DNA of 44,310 bases. It comes from a virus. The notes below the pieces were generated by a model, which was given only the letters and a program-made list of their open reading frames with translations, was not told the origin of the DNA and made no database searches. The stretch spans positions 1-44,310 of the IMG/VR virus record IMGVR_UViG_3300050139_000071; one strand, written 5' to 3'. A program made the position numbers and the translations under genes. This document shows, one piece after another, positions 16,567 to 42,150 of the stretch. Numbering within the stretch: the first letter of the stretch is position 1; the number at the start of each line of letters is the position of its first letter.

Positions 16567-17538
16567 ATGGAAGAAAAATTAGGTACCGGAGCCGATCATT
16601 CTATACAAGACAATCGAACTATTTCTCATAGTGATTTAGCAACTGCAACACCGGAACTTTTTGTTTCTGGTGGTTATGAATATACTATCAATGAAGTTGA
16701 ACATCAGCACATGGTTGGAATTTGTACTGCTATTTCTTTGATACAAAACAGAGAGAAAGCAAATGGAAAAAAATACTCTCCGGAATTTCAATATTTATTA
16801 CAGAAAACTCTATATGATATGAACTGGGTAGAGGGTTCGTCTATTTTTAATGCACTCAAAGTTGGTAAAAGTATCGGATTTCTACCAGCAGAATCTTGGA
16901 TTCACACAACTGAACAAGATAGGTATTTGCCTTATGACCAATATATAGCAAAATTACAAGCAATACCAAGTGCTGAAATCGAACGTCTAAAATCGCTTTG
17001 TATCGACAAAATTGCTGGATATGCGTCAGTAGATGTTTCAGACCCTCAAAGCATCGCTAGAGCAATTGTGGCAAGCGAATCGGGTATATTATGCCGATAT
17101 GGATGTCAAAAAAACTGGTGGACACCTTCTTGGCTTGCTAGAGACATAGACCCATTACGAAATGGAATTGAAACAAGTGGTCATGCAATAAATATGTGTT
17201 CTTTTGATTATTCTAAAGGCTCAAATATGCAAATGCTTGCGAATACATGGGGAGTAACTTGGTGTTTAAATGGTTCAGCTCATATCAATTGGGATAATTA
17301 CAAAATGACAGAAGCTTGGATAATTCTAAAGTCTAATCCATTATTTAAATTCAACACAGATATGCACTTCGGACAAATGAATAGTGATATCAGGGAATTG
17401 CAAAAAAGACTAGGAGTGATACAAACTGGTTTCTTTGGATTACTTACAAAAAATGCGGTAATGCTATTTCAGTCAGCTAATCATTTATCAATCGATGGTG
17501 TAGTCGGACCATTAACTCGTGCAGCATTAAACAAATGA
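16567..17538 (+). CDS. papain-like (C1) cysteine peptidase lysin with peptidoglycan-binding domain
   Basis: A 323-residue protein. In residues 1-260 the papain triad can be aligned: Q47 six residues before C53 (QHMVGIC, the same spacing as Q19/C25 of papain), H206 in GHAINM, and N226 in NTWG. Residues ~270-322 are a PF01471-type peptidoglycan-binding domain (LQKRLG, TGFFGLLTKNAVMLFQ, VVGPLTRAAL). It lies between the XhlA-like gene and the holin, with its stop overlapping the holin start (ATGA). This strongly suggests an endolysin that cuts peptide bridges, although C1 peptidases are unusual in this role. A virion-associated protease is the alternative. Confidence 0.7.
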   Translation: MEEKLGTGADHSIQDNRTISHSDLATATPELFVSGGYEYTINEVEHQHMVGICTAISLIQNREKANGKKYSPEFQYLLQKTLYDMNWVEGSSIFNALKVGKSIGFLPAESWIHTTEQDRYLPYDQYIAKLQAIPSAEIERLKSLCIDKIAGYASVDVSDPQSIARAIVASESGILCRYGCQKNWWTPSWLARDIDPLRNGIETSGHAINMCSFDYSKGSNMQMLANTWGVTWCLNGSAHINWDNYKMTEAWIILKSNPLFKFNTDMHFGQMNSDIRELQKRLGVIQTGFFGLLTKNAVMLFQSANHLSIDGVVGPLTRAALNK

Positions 17539-17759
17539 CATATACAAATATAAAATCAGCTTTCGTATCAGGAATCATCACAGGTATTTTAGGAATGGCA
17601 GGATATATCATAGGAGTAGGTGACATCTTTAAAATTGACGTTCATACTATCTTAAATGTCGGAGCAATATCAGCTTTGACTGTAATTGTATCTTTAATTA
17701 AAGCGTCACTCACAACACCAATCGGACAACTCGCAGGTACATCTATTACTATTAAATAA
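17535..17759 (+). CDS. holin, r1t-like
   Basis: A 74-residue protein with two hydrophobic segments (FVSGIITGILGMAGYIIGVG and ILNVGAISALTVIVSLIKASL) and the short C-terminal pattern ASLTTPIGQLAGTSI, similar to the end of r1t-family holins (…GTASL…). The ATG overlaps the lysin stop. It would form pores in the cytoplasmic membrane and time lysin release. The family call is moderate; a membrane protein of the lysis cassette is certain. Confidence 0.7.
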   Translation: MTYTNIKSAFVSGIITGILGMAGYIIGVGDIFKIDVHTILNVGAISALTVIVSLIKASLTTPIGQLAGTSITIK

Positions 17760-17769
17760 ATGTAAATTT

Positions 17770-17884
17770 ATGATTTCACTTACCTGCACCATTCCCAACA
17801 ATAGTAAAAGTAATCTTCATTCTGATTGCTGTAGTAGCACTATTGAATGCTTTTGGATTTGCGCCAGGTTTAAGTCTTAGATAG
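17770..17884 (+). pseudogene. possible frameshifted small membrane protein
   Basis: The frame 17774-17884 encodes LPAPFPTIVKVIFILIAVV followed by ALLNAFGFAPGLSLR, a convincing Pro-Phe head plus one transmembrane helix, but it has no start codon and begins just after a TGA. The ATG at 17770 is one base out of frame; removal of one base near the fourth codon would give a 37-residue membrane protein starting MISL. It could be a decayed second holin-like gene or a sequence error. Confidence 0.35.
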
Positions 17885-18026
17885 TATCTCCGGGACGTTC
17901 TGCGCTTCGGCTGGGGCTATCCCTTTTGGAGAATCTCGCAATCTAAAGCCAATCTTAGAAATAAAACCTTTAAGATTTGTGAGAGCAAACAGTACCCTTA
18001 ATTTCTCGCAAGAGTGGGTATTTTTT
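17885..18026 (+). ncRNA. candidate structured RNA, three stem-loops ending in terminator
   Basis: Stem 1 is TCTCCGGGA (17887-17895) with TCCC-TTTT-GGAGA (17920-17932), and encloses a C-TTCG-G tetraloop hairpin at 17904-17911. Stem 2 pairs CTCGCAATCTAAAG (17935-17948) with CTTTAAGATTTGTGAG (17968-17983) with two one-base bulges. Stem 3 (17991-18022) is GTACCC with GGGTAT enclosing CTC-GCAA-GAG, followed by a T-run. There is no matching protein reading frame. It may be the processed 3' end of the late transcript or an independent RNA; I see no clear promoter of its own. Confidence 0.5.
17991..18026 (+). terminator. terminator of the late operon
   Basis: GTACCC (17992-17997) pairs with GGGTAT (18016-18021), with an inner CTC/GAG stem capped by a GCAA tetraloop, then TTTTTT to 18026. 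It is placed downstream of the lysis cassette. Confidence 0.6.
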
Positions 18027-18031
18027 GTTTG

Positions 18032-18040
18032 TGATATACT
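18032..18040 (+). promoter_or_regulatory. extended -10 promoter for small RNA
   Basis: TGATATACT, lying directly after the late terminator. No protein gene follows before the next terminator at 18092-18118, so this promoter seems to drive a short untranslated RNA starting near 18047. Confidence 0.5.
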
Positions 18041-18046
18041 ATATGC

Positions 18047-18118
18047 AGATGTTCTGTCTCCACATAAAAGATGTTTTTGAAAAGCATAGGAGCACCTACT
18101 CTAAGGACAGGTGCTTTT
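18047..18118 (+). ncRNA. candidate small RNA (about 72 nt)
   Basis: It is bounded by an extended -10 promoter (18032-18040) and an intrinsic terminator (GCACCT 18092-18097, AGGTGC 18109-18114, then TTTT). Internal pairing ACAT-AAAAG-ATGT at 18062-18074 is weak. No credible ORF is seen. The promoter-to-terminator layout is the evidence; a target is not known. Confidence 0.45.
18092..18118 (+). terminator. intrinsic terminator
   Basis: GCACCT and AGGTGC with an 11-base loop, followed by TTTTGTGTT. The extended -10 of the next promoter begins within the tail. Confidence 0.65.
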
Positions 18119-18119
18119 G

Positions 18120-18128
18120 TGTTATAAT
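18120..18128 (+). promoter_or_regulatory. extended -10 promoter for zinc-finger gene
   Basis: TGTTATAAT with TATAAT at 18123-18128. The start would be near 18135, giving a 17-nt leader to the ATG at 18152. Confidence 0.65.
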
Positions 18129-18151
18129 AGAGTAAACTAAAACTTGTTACC

Positions 18152-18358
18152 ATGACAAAAATCATCCGCACAGTTTACTGCAATTTCTGTGTCCGTTATA
18201 CAATGCAAACTATTGAGCAGATAGCCAATGAACCTTCAAAGAAAATAAAGTATTCAAGGGAATGCTCTATGTGCCAAAGAAGCACCATCGAAGAAATCGG
18301 CTATTCTAAATGGTTCAGAGTTTTCACTAACAAAAGTGATGCACACGAATTGCCGTAA
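18152..18358 (+). CDS. small zinc-finger protein, 68 aa
   Basis: Two CxxC pairs (CNFC at residues ~10-13 and CSMC at ~38-41) set about 25 residues apart form a four-Cys zinc site, with basic surroundings and a Trp near the C-terminus. It is a lone monocistronic gene with its own extended -10 promoter and a hairpin plus terminator downstream, set among small-RNA-like units at the end of the late operon. A nucleic-acid-binding regulator is plausible; no family is recognised. Confidence 0.65.
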   Translation: MTKIIRTVYCNFCVRYTMQTIEQIANEPSKKIKYSRECSMCQRSTIEEIGYSKWFRVFTNKSDAHELP

Positions 18359-18363
18359 AAACT

Positions 18364-18403
18364 AACCTGAAACAGGTTGCCCCATTCTTTGAGTGGGGAT
18401 TTT
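18364..18403 (+). terminator. hairpin pair and terminator after zinc-finger gene
   Basis: AACCTG-AAA-CAGGTT at 18364-18378 is a perfect hairpin. It is followed at once by CCCCA (18380-18384) and TGGGG (18394-18398) around a 9-base loop, then ATTTTATTT. The second hairpin is a good intrinsic terminator. Confidence 0.65.
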
Positions 18404-18410
18404 ATTTGTA

Positions 18411-18419
18411 TGGTATAAT
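18411..18419 (+). promoter_or_regulatory. extended -10 promoter pointing at a convergent terminator
   Basis: TGGTATAAT with TATAAT at 18414-18419. The only downstream element before the opposite-strand gene is a pair of hairpins ending in a T-run, so the product would be an RNA of about 55 nt. Confidence 0.5.
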
Positions 18420-18425
18420 ATAAGG

Positions 18426-18480
18426 GCAGTCAGATATGATTGCTCCAAATCCCAAAAGCTCTAGCTCTGCTAGGGTTTTT
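18426..18480 (+). ncRNA. candidate small RNA (about 55 nt), two hairpins
   Basis: The first hairpin GCAGTCA-GATA-TGATTGC (18426-18443) has 7 pairs, extendable by two. The second is a 12-pair terminator hairpin at 18454-18480 ending in T. A perfect extended -10 sits just upstream. The two ordered hairpins with little spare sequence look like a compact sRNA. Confidence 0.5.
18454..18480. terminator. bidirectional terminator between convergent transcripts
   Basis: AAAAGCTCTAGC (18454-18465) pairs with GCTAGGGTTTTT around a TCT loop, 12 pairs including G-T. A-tracts and T-tracts flank both sides, so it can end rightward RNA and the leftward early operon whose last stop codon is at 18484. Confidence 0.7.
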
Positions 18481-18483
18481 GCT

Positions 18484-19137
18484 TTACCATAATTTTTCAG
18501 AAGGTTTTACATGAGCAACCCAGCATAATTCGATCTCTTTCGCTACGCGAATAGTATCGGCCATACAAACAAGAATATCTGCTAATGTAAAGGTAACTTT
18601 AAATGTCTCAACATGGCCGGTAGGTTTGATACCTTCAGGATAAGATATTAAATCATCAGTATCTTCTGTTTGGATCCAAATAAGTTTTGTTTCATTCAAA
18701 ACTATTCCGTAGGTCAGATATATTAAAAGTGCATAGAATAAAAGTTGTGGGTGCTTCTGGGCCTTTGCGAGGGTCCATTTTCCTTTTCCTGTTTTAAATT
18801 CTATAAAATTCTTTGTTTTACTATCTAAACTATCCGGTCTACCAAGAATATCAAAACAACCATCTTTAGTTTTTATGGTAGTACGGATCTCTTTATCGGC
18901 GACATCATATTTAGGTAATAACAACATCGCAGCGTCCGTAAGGAGATCTCCGGTTTCGATACCTTTTTCCAAAGCATCGGCTACAAATTTTCCATAAGAT
19001 AATCCACTATTATTAAGGCGCATAGCTTGGTTGTCATTCATGTAAAGTTCTATATAGCGTTTTGGATTACTTTTCCATAATTCTTTTTGGGAATTACTTA
19101 AATATCCCTTTGGCAATTGTATGTATTTTTTCTTCAT
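18484..19137 (-). CDS. PD-(D/E)XK exonuclease, RecB/Cas4-like
   Basis: A 217-residue protein with the full RecB-nuclease pattern: D102 in GRPDSLD, E113 and K115 in EFKTGKG, and Q131/Y135 in QLLFYA (QxxxY). Only the nuclease domain is present, with no helicase and no Cys cluster for an Fe-S site, so it is a phage-type recombination exonuclease rather than a true Cas4. It is the last gene of the leftward operon, ending at a bidirectional terminator. It would resect DNA ends for phage recombination, perhaps with the ssDNA-binding protein at 26.3 kb. Confidence 0.8.
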   Translation of the reverse strand: MKKKYIQLPKGYLSNSQKELWKSNPKRYIELYMNDNQAMRLNNSGLSYGKFVADALEKGIETGDLLTDAAMLLLPKYDVADKEIRTTIKTKDGCFDILGRPDSLDSKTKNFIEFKTGKGKWTLAKAQKHPQLLFYALLIYLTYGIVLNETKLIWIQTEDTDDLISYPEGIKPTGHVETFKVTFTLADILVCMADTIRVAKEIELCWVAHVKPSEKLW

Positions 19138-19138
19138 A

Positions 19139-19594
19139 TTATCCTAAATTAGCAAACTTACCATGATATTTAATACATGCTTTACAATAAGCTTTATAAG
19201 CTTCTTCTTTTGAATCAAAATATCCAAGATGTATCGATTTATAATTTACTTTAATCTTAGCTACCCATTTATTCATTTTTTTATACCATGAAACTCCTTT
19301 GTATCCAGATTTATTATCTTTTGATAGTTTTCGATTTTTACCGTTTTCTTCATGTGTACATATTCTCAAATTCTTTTTTTGATTATTTAAAATATTACCG
19401 TCTTTATGATCGACCTCCATACCTTTTGGACAATCCATTATTTGACGATGTATTTTTATTCTCTTGTTATTTGATCCTCTTATATAACGACATACACTTC
19501 TTAAATCAAGATGCCATTTATACTGATTTAATTCATCAAAATCTTCATTATCAACTAGAACATATTTACCTTTTGTTGTTTTAATTTTTTTCAT
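19139..19594 (-). CDS. HNH homing endonuclease with AP2 domain
   Basis: A 151-residue protein. Residues ~48-85 contain the HNH core (IHRQIMDCPKGMEVDHKDGN, then LNNQKKNLRICTHEENGKN), and the C-terminal part has an AP2-type DNA-binding domain (SGYKGVSWYKKMNKWVAKI, then HLGYFDSKEEAYKAY). This combination is typical of free-standing phage homing endonucleases. It is inserted between the protease and exonuclease genes; its ATG overlaps the protease stop (ATGA). It is probably a selfish element rather than part of the replication machinery. Confidence 0.85.
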   Translation of the reverse strand: MKKIKTTKGKYVLVDNEDFDELNQYKWHLDLRSVCRYIRGSNNKRIKIHRQIMDCPKGMEVDHKDGNILNNQKKNLRICTHEENGKNRKLSKDNKSGYKGVSWYKKMNKWVAKIKVNYKSIHLGYFDSKEEAYKAYCKACIKYHGKFANLG

Positions 19595-20699: not shown

Positions 20700-20852
20700 T
20701 TATAAACTTTTAATACAATCAATTATTACACCGACCAATGCTAAACCCATTCCAATTACAGAAATATAACCGACAGAAGAATGCAAATAAAATGTTAGTT
20801 TTGATACTTCACTTTCGTTCCCAAATATATCTGTTATGTAATATCTTTTCAT
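20700..20852 (-). CDS. small single-span membrane protein, 50 aa
   Basis: ATG at 20852. The N-terminal half is polar (MKRYYITDIFGNESEVSK); residues ~26-46 are hydrophobic (VGYISVIGMGLALVGVIID). It lies in the leftward operon before two zinc-ribbon genes and the membrane protease, which suggests an envelope-related cluster. No family is recognised. Confidence 0.55.
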   Translation of the reverse strand: MKRYYITDIFGNESEVSKLTFYLHSSVGYISVIGMGLALVGVIIDCIKSL

Positions 20853-23647: not shown

Positions 23648-24805
23648 TTAGTCTCCTTTACAATTTAATATTTGCTTTAGTGTGTATTCGACCTTTACCA
23701 AATCTTTTGCATATTCAATCGTTTTATCTATGTCCTTATAAGCTCCTGGAATCTCGTCAATGAGAACATCTGACTTTCTGTATTCAATTCCTTCCATAGC
23801 TTTCTCAAGGTCTGCCATATTAAATTTTTCTGATGCTTTCTTTCGAGACATAGTTCTACCTGCTCCGTGTGGTGCTGAACAGAATGATTGCTCGTTTCCA
23901 AGCCCTGAAACAATATAACTGTTTGTTCCCATAGAACCAGGAATCATGGCTTTCTTTCCAATAGAAGCCTCAATAGCACCCTTGCGAGTTATCCAAGAAT
24001 TACCTCCCATGTGATTTTCAACTTGAGTAAAATTATGATGACAATTTATTCGTTCAACTTCAAAATCTGATTGATGACCATTTTCTCCATAAACTGCATA
24101 ACTAACATCCTTAAGAACTCTATCCATCATCTCATCACGATTAAGCATTGCAAAATGTTGAGACCAGTGTAAGTCAGTCATATAGTCATCAAATGACTTT
24201 GTTCCAGGAATTAAATAAGCCAAATCCTCATTAGGTAATGTAATAAACATATCCTTACATAATTCTTGTGCAATTTTTATATATGTATTTCCAACTTTAT
24301 TCCCAACACCACGAGAACCAGAATGAAGTGTTACCCAAATAGTATCTTCTTGGTCAAGACAAATTTCTATAAAATGATTTCCACCACCAAGTGTTCCAAG
24401 TTGTTCGTGCCAATTTCCTACCACCTTATCTGTGTGTGGCATTGCTTCAAGTTCATCAATTCTTTTTTGTGCTGATTCAGTAATTTTATTATTAAATCTT
24501 CCTGCACTCATAGGAACTGAACGCTCAATAGATGCACGAAGTTTTGCTAAATCTCCGAGTTGTTCTTTTTTAAGATTAGTCTTTACTGCTATCATTCCGC
24601 AACCAATATCAACACCAACGGCAGCTGGAATAATTGCTCCTTGTGTTGCTAATACAGTTCCAACAGTAGAACCTTTACCATAATGGCAATCAGGCATGAC
24701 AGCCACATGACGGAATATAAAAGGCATAGAAGCAGTATTTTTAATTTGCTCTTGTGCCTCTACTTCTATTTCTTCCCAAGGTATGAATGTTTTTATTTTA
24801 TCCAT
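23648..24805 (-). CDS. rtcB: RtcB-family RNA ligase
   Basis: A 385-residue protein matching RtcB over its full length: MPDCHYGKGS (38-47), GVDIGCGM (64-71, metal-binding D66 and C69), GGGNHFIE (140-147), LHSGSRG (160-166), HHNF (256-259) and the guanylylation-site region APHGAGRTMSR (311-321). RtcB joins RNA 2',3'-cyclic phosphate or 3'-phosphate ends to 5'-OH ends using GTP. In a phage it could repair tRNAs cut by host anticodon nucleases. No archease and no tRNA gene is nearby. It overlaps the upstream gene by 8 nt. Confidence 0.93.
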   Translation of the reverse strand: MDKIKTFIPWEEIEVEAQEQIKNTASMPFIFRHVAVMPDCHYGKGSTVGTVLATQGAIIPAAVGVDIGCGMIAVKTNLKKEQLGDLAKLRASIERSVPMSAGRFNNKITESAQKRIDELEAMPHTDKVVGNWHEQLGTLGGGNHFIEICLDQEDTIWVTLHSGSRGVGNKVGNTYIKIAQELCKDMFITLPNEDLAYLIPGTKSFDDYMTDLHWSQHFAMLNRDEMMDRVLKDVSYAVYGENGHQSDFEVERINCHHNFTQVENHMGGNSWITRKGAIEASIGKKAMIPGSMGTNSYIVSGLGNEQSFCSAPHGAGRTMSRKKASEKFNMADLEKAMEGIEYRKSDVLIDEIPGAYKDIDKTIEYAKDLVKVEYTLKQILNCKGD

Positions 24806-33554: not shown

Positions 33555-33584
33555 GTTAAAATGTGGATAACTTTTTTTTTAATT

Positions 33585-33843
33585 GGTATGCAAATTGGTA
33601 TGCAAACTGATTTCAGGCTTATTTTTAAAGGTTTTTTTGGCTGTTTGCATACCTTGTAAAAAAAGGGCAAAACATTTTGTCTGTAGAGTACTACTACTAC
33701 TACTACTACTCTTATATATAATTATATATATATAAAGGTATACTAGGTATGCTAATAGTTGGTAATATGCTTATAAAAAAAGGGTAAAAAAAAATTTGCA
33801 TACCTTTTGCATACCTTTATATTTGCATACCTAGGTATGCAAA
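33585..33843. repeat. iterated GGTATGCAAA / TTTGCATACC sites: origin or operator region
   Basis: Exact 10-mers occur at 33585-33594 and 33597-33606 (direct, 12 bp apart), 33644-33653, 33795-33804, 33806-33815 (11 bp apart), 33822-33831 and 33834-33843. The last two are inverted around TA, forming a perfect 22-bp palindrome. A degenerate copy is at 33746-33755. Between the clusters lie seven TAC repeats (33689-33709) and an alternating A/T tract (33712-33736). Clustered iterons with an AT-rich tract between divergent operons suggest a replication origin; repressor operators are the alternative. Confidence 0.75.
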
Positions 33844-33855
33844 CCAGCAACGCAA

Positions 33856-33892
33856 GCCTATGATCAATGCTAGCCTATAATCAACGCCAGCC
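33856..33892. repeat. 17-bp degenerate tandem repeat
   Basis: GCCTATGATCAATGCTA is followed directly by GCCTATAATCAACGCCA and then GCC, next to the last iteron palindrome. It may be another protein-binding array in the origin candidate. Confidence 0.6.
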
Positions 33893-33894
33893 GA

Positions 33895-33923
33895 GGGCTT
33901 GCGCGCGGAACGCGCGCGGGCTT
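33895..33923. other. very GC-rich hairpin in AT-rich origin region
   Basis: GCGCGCG (33901-33907), GAA loop, CGCGCGC (33911-33917), extended outward by CTT/GGG-type wobble pairs to about 13 pairs. It is an extreme contrast with the surrounding AT-rich DNA. It could be a cruciform, a primase or termination structure, or the barrier between leftward and rightward control regions. Confidence 0.6.
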
Positions 33924-34089
33924 ATCTGGTGCGTAGCACTCCGTTTGTCATGGTTCTATACTTTCCAACCAATCCCCCCAATCTTTCACTAAAAAATTTT
34001 GCGTCTTAAATTATTCTATATCATTATATGTATTGCATTTTCTTTTATTCTATATCCTAATATTATTTATTGTCTTGCTTTCTTATTTA

Positions 34090-36486: not shown

Positions 36487-38826
36487 ATGCAAAATATAAA
36501 AGAACTCGAAAAACCACAACAAGTAGTAGAAACTTTTACTCCGGATACGGAAGAAAAAATAATTCAAACTTATGTTAAGAAGCGCGTGCGTGAAATGCAA
36601 GAGCACCGCCGTGAATTAAAGATTGAAGATAAATGGAAAGAGGCGGATAGAGAATATGTTCCAAGAGAAATGGATTTTGGCGCTAATGGAAAAAGATTTG
36701 AGACAGACCAGACTGATGGGTATCGTACACGATTGGTTCCGATTGGTGATAATACTCAGAACTGGCGTTCAAATAATTCCGCACCAACATTATTGCAAAA
36801 AATACAGACTGCTATTTCTTTGATTATTGATAATAATCCGGAAGCAGTTTTTACCGCGTTGCAAAGAAAATATGAATCAACATCTGATTTAGCAAATTCT
36901 CTTTGGAAAAGAAATTGGCAGATTACTGGTGGTAAGGAAATTTTAAAATTATTTGTGTTTAACTTGGTGAAATATGGTACTGCTTATGGAAGATCTTATC
37001 CAAGAGTAATAAAATATAACAAAGAAGTCTTGACGGAATTTGATACGGAAGATCCTACAAAAAATAAATATGAGAATAAGGAAGTTGTTTGGTTTAATGA
37101 TGTAGCCAAACAAAATCTTGATCCATTCCGAACATGGATTGATGAACAGTCAAAACCGTATGATATGTATACTACGAATGATTGTTATTATGAATTGGAT
37201 TTTTCTTATGATGCAGCCGAGATAGAATTTGGGCAATATCCAAACTGGAAATATGTTAAAAAAGATTCTAAGTCTATTCCAACAAATGATATAAAAGACA
37301 AAGATGATGACAAACAGATTCGCAAGGATATTGTTACGATAGGATTTTACGAAAATAGATTAAAGGATATGTATGTTATCAAAGCAGTAAAGGATGATAT
37401 TATTTTGCATTCTTGTCCTTTGCCTAATGATGAAGGATTGCTTTCTGTGTGGTATGGAATGTGGGTAATGCGTTCAGCGGATAGACCGGACGGTATTTCT
37501 CTATGGGAAATTATTTGTCAGGATAAATGGACGTATGACAAGTGGATGAATATGGGCAGTGACCAGTTAACATTGTCTATTATGAAATTTGGATATTACA
37601 CCGGTACACAAGCGCTTACCGGAGATGGACGTATGGATATTGTTCCTGGAATGGCTAAACAAATTACCAATGGAAAAATAGATTGGATGGCAATAGATGG
37701 TCCAGGAAAAGATTGGTGGGAAGGAATAAAAATGATCCAATCAAAAATGGAAGACAGTTCCGGTATTACTCCTACAATGGAAGGAAGTGTCACTGGTAAA
37801 ACTCTAGGAGAAATACAAATGGCAAGAGAAGCTTCACTAAAGCGTTTAAAAATTCCGCTTGAAAATATCGCATGGGCTATCGAACAGGATGCTTATCTTA
37901 CTCTCTCTTGGATGAGTCAGATTTATTCTACTCCTGAAGTAAAACAATTTGCGAACGAAAGAGAAATGCTTGTTTATGAAAAAGAAAATGATGTCCAGCA
38001 TAATGAATTATTTCAAGAAACAGATCCTAATACATTATTAAAAACAGATCCTTTGACAGGTATGCCGATACCGGATGATCAAGCTGGTAAACCAACACCT
38101 CCACAAATGGGACCGGATGGAAAACCTATGCCAGCACAGCAACCTCCTCAAGGATTGACGGCAACATATTTGCCTCAACTTTCTTTACACTTGCAAGATA
38201 GGAATGGACAGCTTTTTGAATCTGATCAATCACGATATTTCCAAGTAGGGAAAGATATTCAGGTTACTTCTATGAAATGGAAAGGAATGATAAAAGTAAT
38301 TCCAAAATCTCTGGTTGGAACTTCAGAAATAATTATGAAGCAGACAAAACAAGAAATGATAAATCTTCTTGTTCCTCTTCTAAAAGGAAGTCCGCTTATA
38401 AATAAGAAACCTGCAATACAACTTTTGAAAATTAATGAAGAAGATCCTCAGGATTGGTTGCCAGATATTGCTGGATGGAATGATGCTCCTTATCAGATTA
38501 TTCCTCCACAACCTGAACCGCCTACCTTTAGAATAACTGCTGGATGGGATGATCTTGTTTCTGATCCTGAATTTAAGGTGGCTATTGCAAAGAAGATTGG
38601 TATTGATTTACCGCCTCCACTACCTGTCGCTCCGCCAATATTTATTCCTAAAGGAGGAACAGAAGTTGGAACCGGAACACCACCTGCTGATCAGGGAGGT
38701 GCACAGGGAACGGGAAATAATGGCCAACAAGCACCGACATTAATACCTCGAGCTAATATTTCATCACCGATGCCTCAAAGTAAATCTACTCTTGGTGGAG
38801 TAGGAAGTATCTTTAAGAAAGGATAA
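36487..38826 (+). CDS. portal protein
   Basis: A 779-residue protein directly after the large terminase. Residues ~100-480 have the portal pattern of helical core (LLQKIQTAISLIIDNNPEAV, LFVFNLVKYGTAYGRSY), a wing with WFNDVAKQNLDPFRTWIDEQ, and the later helix TLGEIQMAREASLKRLK followed by LENIAWAIEQDAYLTL. The C-terminal ~230 residues are Pro-rich with low-complexity PPP and GGAQGTG tracts, as in podoviral portals with long barrel or crown extensions. It forms the dodecameric DNA channel at the capsid vertex. The stop overlaps the next start (TAATG). Confidence 0.88.
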   Translation: MQNIKELEKPQQVVETFTPDTEEKIIQTYVKKRVREMQEHRRELKIEDKWKEADREYVPREMDFGANGKRFETDQTDGYRTRLVPIGDNTQNWRSNNSAPTLLQKIQTAISLIIDNNPEAVFTALQRKYESTSDLANSLWKRNWQITGGKEILKLFVFNLVKYGTAYGRSYPRVIKYNKEVLTEFDTEDPTKNKYENKEVVWFNDVAKQNLDPFRTWIDEQSKPYDMYTTNDCYYELDFSYDAAEIEFGQYPNWKYVKKDSKSIPTNDIKDKDDDKQIRKDIVTIGFYENRLKDMYVIKAVKDDIILHSCPLPNDEGLLSVWYGMWVMRSADRPDGISLWEIICQDKWTYDKWMNMGSDQLTLSIMKFGYYTGTQALTGDGRMDIVPGMAKQITNGKIDWMAIDGPGKDWWEGIKMIQSKMEDSSGITPTMEGSVTGKTLGEIQMAREASLKRLKIPLENIAWAIEQDAYLTLSWMSQIYSTPEVKQFANEREMLVYEKENDVQHNELFQETDPNTLLKTDPLTGMPIPDDQAGKPTPPQMGPDGKPMPAQQPPQGLTATYLPQLSLHLQDRNGQLFESDQSRYFQVGKDIQVTSMKWKGMIKVIPKSLVGTSEIIMKQTKQEMINLLVPLLKGSPLINKKPAIQLLKINEEDPQDWLPDIAGWNDAPYQIIPPQPEPPTFRITAGWDDLVSDPEFKVAIAKKIGIDLPPPLPVAPPIFIPKGGTEVGTGTPPADQGGAQGTGNNGQQAPTLIPRANISSPMPQSKSTLGGVGSIFKKG

Positions 38827-41145: not shown

Positions 41146-41163
41146 TTTGACAATTTATCAGTA

Positions 41164-41290
41164 AATCCGCGAACCTTGTGAGAGCTATTAGCTCTTGTAG
41201 AGTAAAATTTTCTTCGCGGATTAAATTATTTTACAAGAACTAATAGCCCCCATAAGGGGCTATTTTTAATTCTTGTCAGTCTTCGACAAG
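41164..41290 (+). promoter_or_regulatory. nested RNA structure and terminator in scaffold leader
   Basis: AATCCGCGAA (41164-41173) pairs with TTCGCGGATT (41213-41222) around an inner AGAGCT-ATT-AGCTCT hairpin (41181-41195). Next is a terminator hairpin AATAGCCCC-CATAA-GGGGCTATT plus TTT (41242-41267), flanked by ACAAGAA (41233-41239) and TTCTTGT (41270-41276), which pair. TTCTTGTC can instead pair with GACAAG (41285-41290). The mutually exclusive pairings just before the scaffold gene suggest attenuation. Confidence 0.65.
41242..41267 (+). terminator. intrinsic terminator before scaffold gene
   Basis: Perfect 9-bp stem AATAGCCCC / GGGGCTATT with CATAA loop and a T-run overlapping the stem end. 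It would separate the small head genes from the scaffold-capsid genes unless read through. Confidence 0.75.
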
Positions 41291-41316: not shown

Positions 41317-42150
41317 ATGGCAAATGAAAATGAAGCGGAAGTAAAAGAATTCAATGAAACGATAGTCATCGAACCATCTAACGATGGAGATAATGAAATA
41401 ATCGAACCCATTGAATCGGAGACGGAAACTCCAACCCCCTCTTCCGAGGAAGATAAACCAGAACCGGAACTAGAATCTGAGCCAGAAATTACAGATGATA
41501 AGCCAGAACAAGTACCGGAAGCAGAAGTACCAACAGAAGAAGTTAAAGAACCAAAACCAGTAGATGGTGAAACTCCTCGAGAAAGAGCGTTACGAATGGA
41601 AACAAGCCGATTGAAAGGATTGCTCCGTAAGGAACGCCAAGATGAATTGTTTGTTAAACAACCAACAGTGAAATCTAAAGAGGAAGACTTGTCTGAATAT
41701 GATCCTGAAGAAGTAAAGCGTCTTGAAACATTGGTAAGCAAATTGGGATATGTGAAGAAAAATGAGTATGTCCAGCAAAGTGTCTTAGAAAAGAATAATG
41801 CTGAATTTGATACATTTATCGAAGAACATCCGGAATATAGTGCTGAAAATGATAAAGATGGAATTCTTTGGAATCAATTTAAGGCAGAATTCGGCCTCTA
41901 CCAACCTCCTCAGGATCCACGTACTCTTAGGAAGGTTTTAAATAAAGTTCATAACGAAATCTATGGTATAAAGCCTGCAATGAACCTTAATAAAATTAAC
42001 GCTCAGCAGCAAAAGCTAAAAGTAGCTTCGCACACGGGCACAATGGGTTCCAAGGCTTCAATCTCTTCACCTCAAGCTCCAAATCCTAATATTAGGAGAG
42101 ATATGCTTAAAGGTTTTGACGAAGAGGACTTGAAAGAAATGGGACTCTAA
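41317..42150 (+). CDS. capsid scaffolding protein
   Basis: A 277-residue protein. The N-terminal 90 residues are extremely acidic and Pro-rich (ESETETPTPSSEEDKPEPEL), the middle is helical (ERALRMETSRLKGLLRKERQ, then EEVKRLETLVSKLGYVKKNE), and the C-terminus has a basic helix-turn-like tail (NIRRDMLKGFDEEDLKEMGL). This layout and the place two genes before the capsid protein are typical of podoviral scaffolds, which are removed from procapsids. The gene follows a complex attenuator-like leader. Confidence 0.8.
   Translation: MANENEAEVKEFNETIVIEPSNDGDNEIIEPIESETETPTPSSEEDKPEPELESEPEITDDKPEQVPEAEVPTEEVKEPKPVDGETPRERALRMETSRLKGLLRKERQDELFVKQPTVKSKEEDLSEYDPEEVKRLETLVSKLGYVKKNEYVQQSVLEKNNAEFDTFIEEHPEYSAENDKDGILWNQFKAEFGLYQPPQDPRTLRKVLNKVHNEIYGIKPAMNLNKINAQQQKLKVASHTGTMGSKASISSPQAPNPNIRRDMLKGFDEEDLKEMGL

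Follow-up and report, generated by a model that had tools for sequence, protein, structure and literature searches.

Why should the place at which two convergent phage operons end hold a cluster of promoters and terminator-like hairpins around a single small gene? The question is raised by positions 17885-18480 of the IMG/VR virus record IMGVR_UViG_3300050139_000071, which we analysed over its whole length (positions 1-44,310, hereafter the window) and which, as its 44,310 bases carry an exact 127-bp terminal repeat, probably represents a complete circular phage genome. The late genes run on the plus strand to 17759 and the early genes on the minus strand from 18484, and the interval sits between the two operon ends. 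An earlier note had described it as a compact small-RNA locus. We consider that 17985-18486 is probably a cassette of moron type that closes the late operon, with three autonomous plus-strand units, two of which would make small RNAs. The genes that frame it are as follows:

16567-17538, plus strand: peptidoglycan-binding endolysin, the penultimate late gene, before the holin-like protein
17535-17759, plus strand: holin-like membrane protein, the final lysis-cassette gene and our syntenic anchor, placed by protein identity to relatives
18484-19137, minus strand: PD-(D/E)XK nuclease (PF12705 match) at the convergent end of the early operon

Papain-like motifs (GICTA, SGHAI and NTWG) can be picked out by eye in the N-terminal part of the endolysin (16567-17280), and profiles from Pfam and PDB recognized the C-terminal peptidoglycan-binding domain alone. 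Immediately 3' of the holin-like gene there is a start-less open frame (17777-17887, plus strand; LPAPFPTIVKVIFILIAVVALLNAFGFAPGLSLR), which resembles a membrane-peptide gene whose start is broken or frameshifted.

Between these genes we located the following features:

17892-17923, plus strand: weak terminator-like hairpin followed by TTTTGG at the late-operon end (dG -10.6; z -0.08, no better than shuffles)
17985-18028, plus strand: T0, terminator-like hairpin (dG -12.0 with T-run; 17940-18030, z -2.5)
18032-18040, plus strand: promoter 1 (P1), extended -10 motif TGATATACT, in a 14-nt repeat of the promoter 2 region
18046-18122, plus strand: RNA1, predicted transcript of ~77 nt (z -3.07)
18085-18121, plus strand: T1, RNA1 terminator, overlapping promoter 2 (dG -16.2)
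18120-18128, plus strand: promoter 2 (P2), extended -10 motif TGTTATAAT, predicted to serve the zinc-finger gene
18152-18358, plus strand: small moron-like zinc-finger gene, an open reading frame of 68 aa with two CxxC motifs (CNFC...CSMC)
18364-18378, minus strand: weak terminator-like hairpin, the sole one near the early-operon end, found by a looser scan and missed by a stricter one
18380-18405, plus strand: T2, zinc-finger gene terminator (dG -11.0; 18359-18405, z -4.47)
18411-18419, plus strand: promoter 3 (P3), extended -10 motif TGGTATAAT
~18424-18486, plus strand: RNA2, predicted transcript of ~61 nt (z -5.14, with 0 of 200 shuffles as good)
18456-18486, plus strand: T3, RNA2 terminator from the terminator scan (stem CAAAAGCUCUAGC/GCUAGGGUUUUUG)

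All three extended -10 promoters that had been claimed at 18032, 18120 and 18411 are present on the plus strand, and their number exceeds the shuffle expectation. The motif TGNTATA[AC]T occurs ten times on the plus strand and once on the minus strand of the window, mostly in intergenic positions. Within the interval the three copies compare with a mean of 0.04 in shuffles, and at least three were obtained in 0 of 2000 dinucleotide shuffles; three copies within 400 nt were reached by one of 100 block-shuffled genomes. None of the three promoters has a good -35 element, and a scan for 9 of 12 consensus positions includes none of them.

At least four terminator-like hairpins had been proposed and we found five on the plus strand, ending at 17923, 18028, 18121, 18398 and 18478. 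In a sliding scan at dG ≤ -10.5 the interval was the sole 600-nt position with five plus-strand hairpins; a looser energy cut gives equally dense stretches elsewhere, so that the hairpin count alone is only moderately unusual. The late-operon end itself folds with z = -2 to -2.5, and T0 is likely to be the late-operon terminator. When 80-nt sliding segments were examined from 16 to 20 kb, most of the strong folding signals fell within 18060-18520. The claim of more regulatory structure than an operon end requires holds statistically. The order of the parts is T0, then P1-RNA1-T1, then P2-zinc-finger gene-T2, then P3-RNA2-T3, with T0 4 nt before P1, T1 overlapping P2 and the tail of T2 ~6 nt before P3; the junctions are alike in sequence, P1 and P3 agreeing at 25 of 32 bases.

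Such an arrangement could also be a stack of tandem terminators which keeps the late operon insulated against the early operon that converges on it, in which case promoter 2 would serve the zinc-finger gene, promoters 1 and 3 would be chance or inert sites, and RNA1 and RNA2 would not exist as separate transcripts. This is the main competitor of the cassette reading, and we regard it as possible but doubtful. All five strong hairpins are oriented with the late operon, as it would have them, whereas the three extended -10 sites are beyond what chance placement provides.

The middle unit of the cassette holds the one small zinc-finger gene of the interval, as the earlier note had it (18152-18358, 68 aa, with its CxxC motifs). 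Its product matched no family in Pfam or PHROG and had no homologue in IMG/VR, and a single-sequence structure prediction was of low confidence (pLDDT 59) and uninformative. A moron is a single gene with its own promoter and terminator, for which a differing base composition is usual but not obligatory (PMC4378225). The zinc-finger gene resembles morons in having its own promoter and terminator (P2 and T2) and in lying in a stretch whose content varies among relatives. It differs in that two of the three units of the window are without a protein gene and in that base composition is the same as that of the genome, the GC content being 37.7% for the gene, 38.4% for the module and 36.9% for the genome.

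The outer units were assessed for folding and for coding potential. RNA2 consists of an 8-bp 5' hairpin, GGGCAGUC(AGAUAU)GAUUGCUC, at its predicted start, a linker and a 13-bp terminator hairpin, and is convincing as a predicted RNA unit; its additional 5' hairpin is not needed for termination, which speaks against the insulating stack. RNA1 is weaker as a candidate RNA unit, with z = -3.1 and a terminator that overlaps promoter 2. It can be folded either into the terminator hairpin or into an H-type pseudoknot (UCUGUCU/GGACAGG together with ACAUAAAAG/CUUUUGUGU), a pseudoknot matched by 10 of 300 shuffles, and for RNA2 the same comparison with 300 shuffles gave no pseudoknot beyond chance. The best reading is of one well-supported small RNA and one plausible one, both predicted. 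The claim that two promoters lead into short hairpin RNAs without an ORF is supported for RNA2 (z -5.1), but RNA1 folds only moderately and small frames overlap both. These frames, each opening with ATG, span 28-30 codons in RNA1 (from 18043 or 18049 to 18135) and 18 codons in RNA2 (18436-18492), and they could be taken to mean that RNA1 and RNA2 are very small genes and not RNA genes, the more so as the genes of this phage are mostly without a Shine-Dalgarno sequence and often have ATATATG-like start contexts. We find this very improbable, since both frames cross the predicted terminator hairpin and stop beyond it, which makes coding unlikely, and no such frame occurs in the corresponding RNAs of two related phages (G002 and G004, below).

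A further possibility is a role in cis for RNA2, and perhaps for RNA1, as an antisense to the 3' end of the early mRNA, or a block of early transcription by collision from its promoter, so aiding the early-to-late switch. No strong terminator faces the early transcripts ahead of the module or inside it, only the weak one at 18378-18364, so that they probably cross RNA2 and their 3' ends are probably complementary to it. As an account of function we nevertheless hold this to be improbable, because the genes that come after the corresponding RNA in G004 and G002 are co-directional with it, and antisense to a convergent operon cannot be its general role.

Scans of IMG/VR by portal, terminase, endolysin and nuclease yielded only a handful of relatives, and scans of prokaryote genomes found none. 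G001 (3300037155_000033) has a terminase and portal 78-80% identical with those of the window and a nuclease of 64-67% identity; G002 (3300032333_000142) and G003 (3300020045_014001) were both found via the endolysin; and G004 is 3300021077_000048 (locus L045). The holin-like protein, which served as the comparison anchor for the window, G004 and G001, has 44% identity with the G004 protein (E 9e-16) and 34% with that of G001.

The whole RNA-gene-RNA layout of the window recurs in G004. There the order past the holin gene is terminator, TATAAT site, ORF-less RNA1 stretch and terminator running into TGATATAAT; next come three small genes, one of them for a zinc-ribbon protein, and then a strong terminator and a TATACT site ahead of an RNA2 which folds into a three-way junction with U8 (z = -6.2). 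That so strongly folded an RNA comes after a strong terminator, although the next genes are co-directional, is again at odds with an insulating stack. In G002 a weak terminator, a TATAAT site and a strongly folded RNA (z = -6.5) lie 3' of the last late-type gene, and in G001 a folded unit starts 4 bp past the holin gene, its terminator likewise running into TGATATAAT. The terminator-promoter junctions of G001 and G004 agree at 27 of 34 bases. G003 has structural genes 3' of its holin gene, and no such module was seen there; a promoter 1 match in this genome lies upstream of the endolysin gene, a non-comparable position, and was set aside. Position and strand recur among the relatives, as do the architecture of the unit and the terminator-promoter junction, whereas RNA sequence differs. 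The insulating stack draws support from this lack of conservation and from the G001 unit, which abuts the holin stop and may itself be the late terminator; similarly, only a weak terminator precedes the G002 unit, which may represent the 3' end of that phage's last late gene. As regards the protein-coding content of the site, the zinc-finger gene is absent from G001, where other small frames separate the holin and early genes, G004 holds other small genes there, and an empty site was seen in neither.

No sequence homologue of RNA1 or RNA2 was detected in the related genomes, and there is consequently no covariation to draw on. Rfam gave no gathering-score match in the window and nothing credible at a relaxed threshold in the module or the relatives, and a search of GenBank phages for DNA similarity to 17500-19200 returned no match. 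A likeness between the RNA2 5' hairpins of the window and G004 (AGUCA/UGAUU) was not significant. With regard to structure, H-type pseudoknot potential equal to that of the G002 RNA and of the second G004 copy was reached by 0 of 300 shuffles, and that of G004 RNA2 by 6 of 300, whereas G001 RNA1 showed nothing beyond chance (300 shuffles). In the four pseudoknot-capable RNAs (those of G002, the second G004 copy, G004 RNA2 and window RNA1) the second stem uses the 3' tail beside or including the U-run, and a pseudoknot fold shared across the RNAs of these phages is a lead from the predicted structures. Separately, a conserved non-coding element (GTCGTGGGGGTTAACTGGGCGAC ... GGGGGGTAGGGGGGTCGTAAC) occurs at L003:8645-8795, L045:7200-7375 and L058:16860-17015, 3' of the G002 RNA unit and of both G004 RNA units, where the preceding RNAs are without sequence conservation; this element was not found in the window.

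We scanned the window and the four relatives on both strands for any TATA[AC]T box with a terminator in the next ~125 nt, keeping units with z ≤ -3 and calling convincingly folded those with z ≤ -4 and MFE ≤ -20. The strongest convincingly folded unit lies just past the holin gene in the window (-10 at 18414), in G001 (43608) and in G004 (7401), RNA2 being the best unit of the scan in the window genome; in G002 the strongest unit is at 20834, ~1.3 kb past the holin gene. In these four genomes the post-holin units are on the same strand and begin 4 to ~1270 bp after the holin gene. G004 has a second convincingly folded unit at 36744, near the terminase genes, and the scan of G003 gave none. In sixteen shuffled window genomes two units passed z ≤ -4, but their folding was weak, and no unit had MFE ≤ -20. 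Because we fixed the thresholds, like the combined z/MFE cut, with the module already known, this evidence is strong but not blind. The small-RNA reading of the earlier note is partly supported. It gains support from an ORF-less folded unit that recurs past the holin gene in three other genomes, from the whole layout in G004 and from the fold of RNA2; it is weakened by the want of any sequence homologue and by the lesser standing of RNA1.

Among known systems, lambda 6S RNA is a short terminated transcript of PR', and the predicted RNAs resemble it as short terminated RNAs with their own promoter in a phage late region. A leader of this kind was rejected for the window: no plus-strand gene follows RNA2, which cannot therefore be an attenuated leader, and the gene after RNA1 has its own promoter. 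In type III toxin-antitoxin systems a ToxI RNA with tandem repeats has a ToxN endoribonuclease gene downstream; RNA1 is likewise pseudoknot-capable, and after it come a terminator and a small gene, that of the zinc-finger protein. This candidate was also rejected, the module having no such tandem repeat and the 68-aa protein being neither ToxN-like nor matched by any family.

The closest analogy is with the anti-sRNAs of lambdoid prophage moron sites, AgvB and AsxR, which are 51-60 nt long and adjoin a moron gene at a constant position in the phage, where related prophages carry different RNAs; they form convergent pairs downstream of PR' with a conserved 3' region in common, and their expression and Hfq binding have been demonstrated (PMC4104026). 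Similarly, RNA2 is predicted to be ~61 nt, adjoins a moron-like gene and occupies a position that recurs after the holin gene in four genomes. Unlike AgvB and AsxR, the RNAs of the window are co-directional, flank the gene on both sides, stand after the lysis genes and are predicted from sequence alone; no convergent pair with a conserved 3' region was found, and no sequence is shared with the relatives. By this analogy the cassette is best filed as a new, predicted variant of moron-site phage small RNAs.

In the cassette as we propose it, each of the three units would have its own extended -10 promoter and its own terminator, which touches or nearly touches the next promoter, the middle unit giving the small zinc-finger protein and the outer units RNA1 (~77 nt) and RNA2 (~61 nt). 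The promoters would fire, the RNAs would accumulate, and RNA1 and RNA2 would act in trans on host RNAs or proteins, as the moron-site RNAs of E. coli prophages do. Among the translation starts of the phage itself RNA1 and RNA2 found targets no better than shuffled RNAs did, and since no phage mRNA is a better-than-chance target, and the sequences change fast while the position persists, we infer, with low confidence and by analogy with the lambdoid anti-sRNAs, that the trans-acting RNAs may be directed at host RNA or protein.

More tentatively, these units might belong to a hypervariable class of phage small RNAs, in which a post-lysis slot holds autonomous, strongly folded and often pseudoknotted units that change in sequence more rapidly than the flanking genes do, a wider proposal that we think unlikely as it stands. 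If true, this is the pattern that an arms race with RNA-based defence or with the RNAs of the host would be expected to leave. Most known phage small RNAs come from prophages whose hosts are well studied, and RNAs without sequence conservation escape homology searches; should a fixed slot with units of promoter, folded RNA and terminator prove general, position and architecture could serve RNA discovery in metagenomic phages.

Three other regions of the window deserve mention. The phage encodes an RtcB-type RNA ligase (23648-24805, minus strand; PF01139, E 2e-117). At 33580-33945, with divergent early and late operons on either side, many copies of TTTGCATACC / GGTATGCAAA are followed by a GC-rich hairpin, which looks like an iteron-type replication origin. 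Finally, a strongly folded leader (41150-41290, z -6.1) between two late genes, 5' of a 277-aa gene at 41317, can adopt either of two long pairings that exclude each other and contains a terminator hairpin (41242-41264), and from this predicted folding looks like an attenuator; the counterpart intergenic place in G001 (L015:362-490) is equally structured (z -6.7) with a different sequence.
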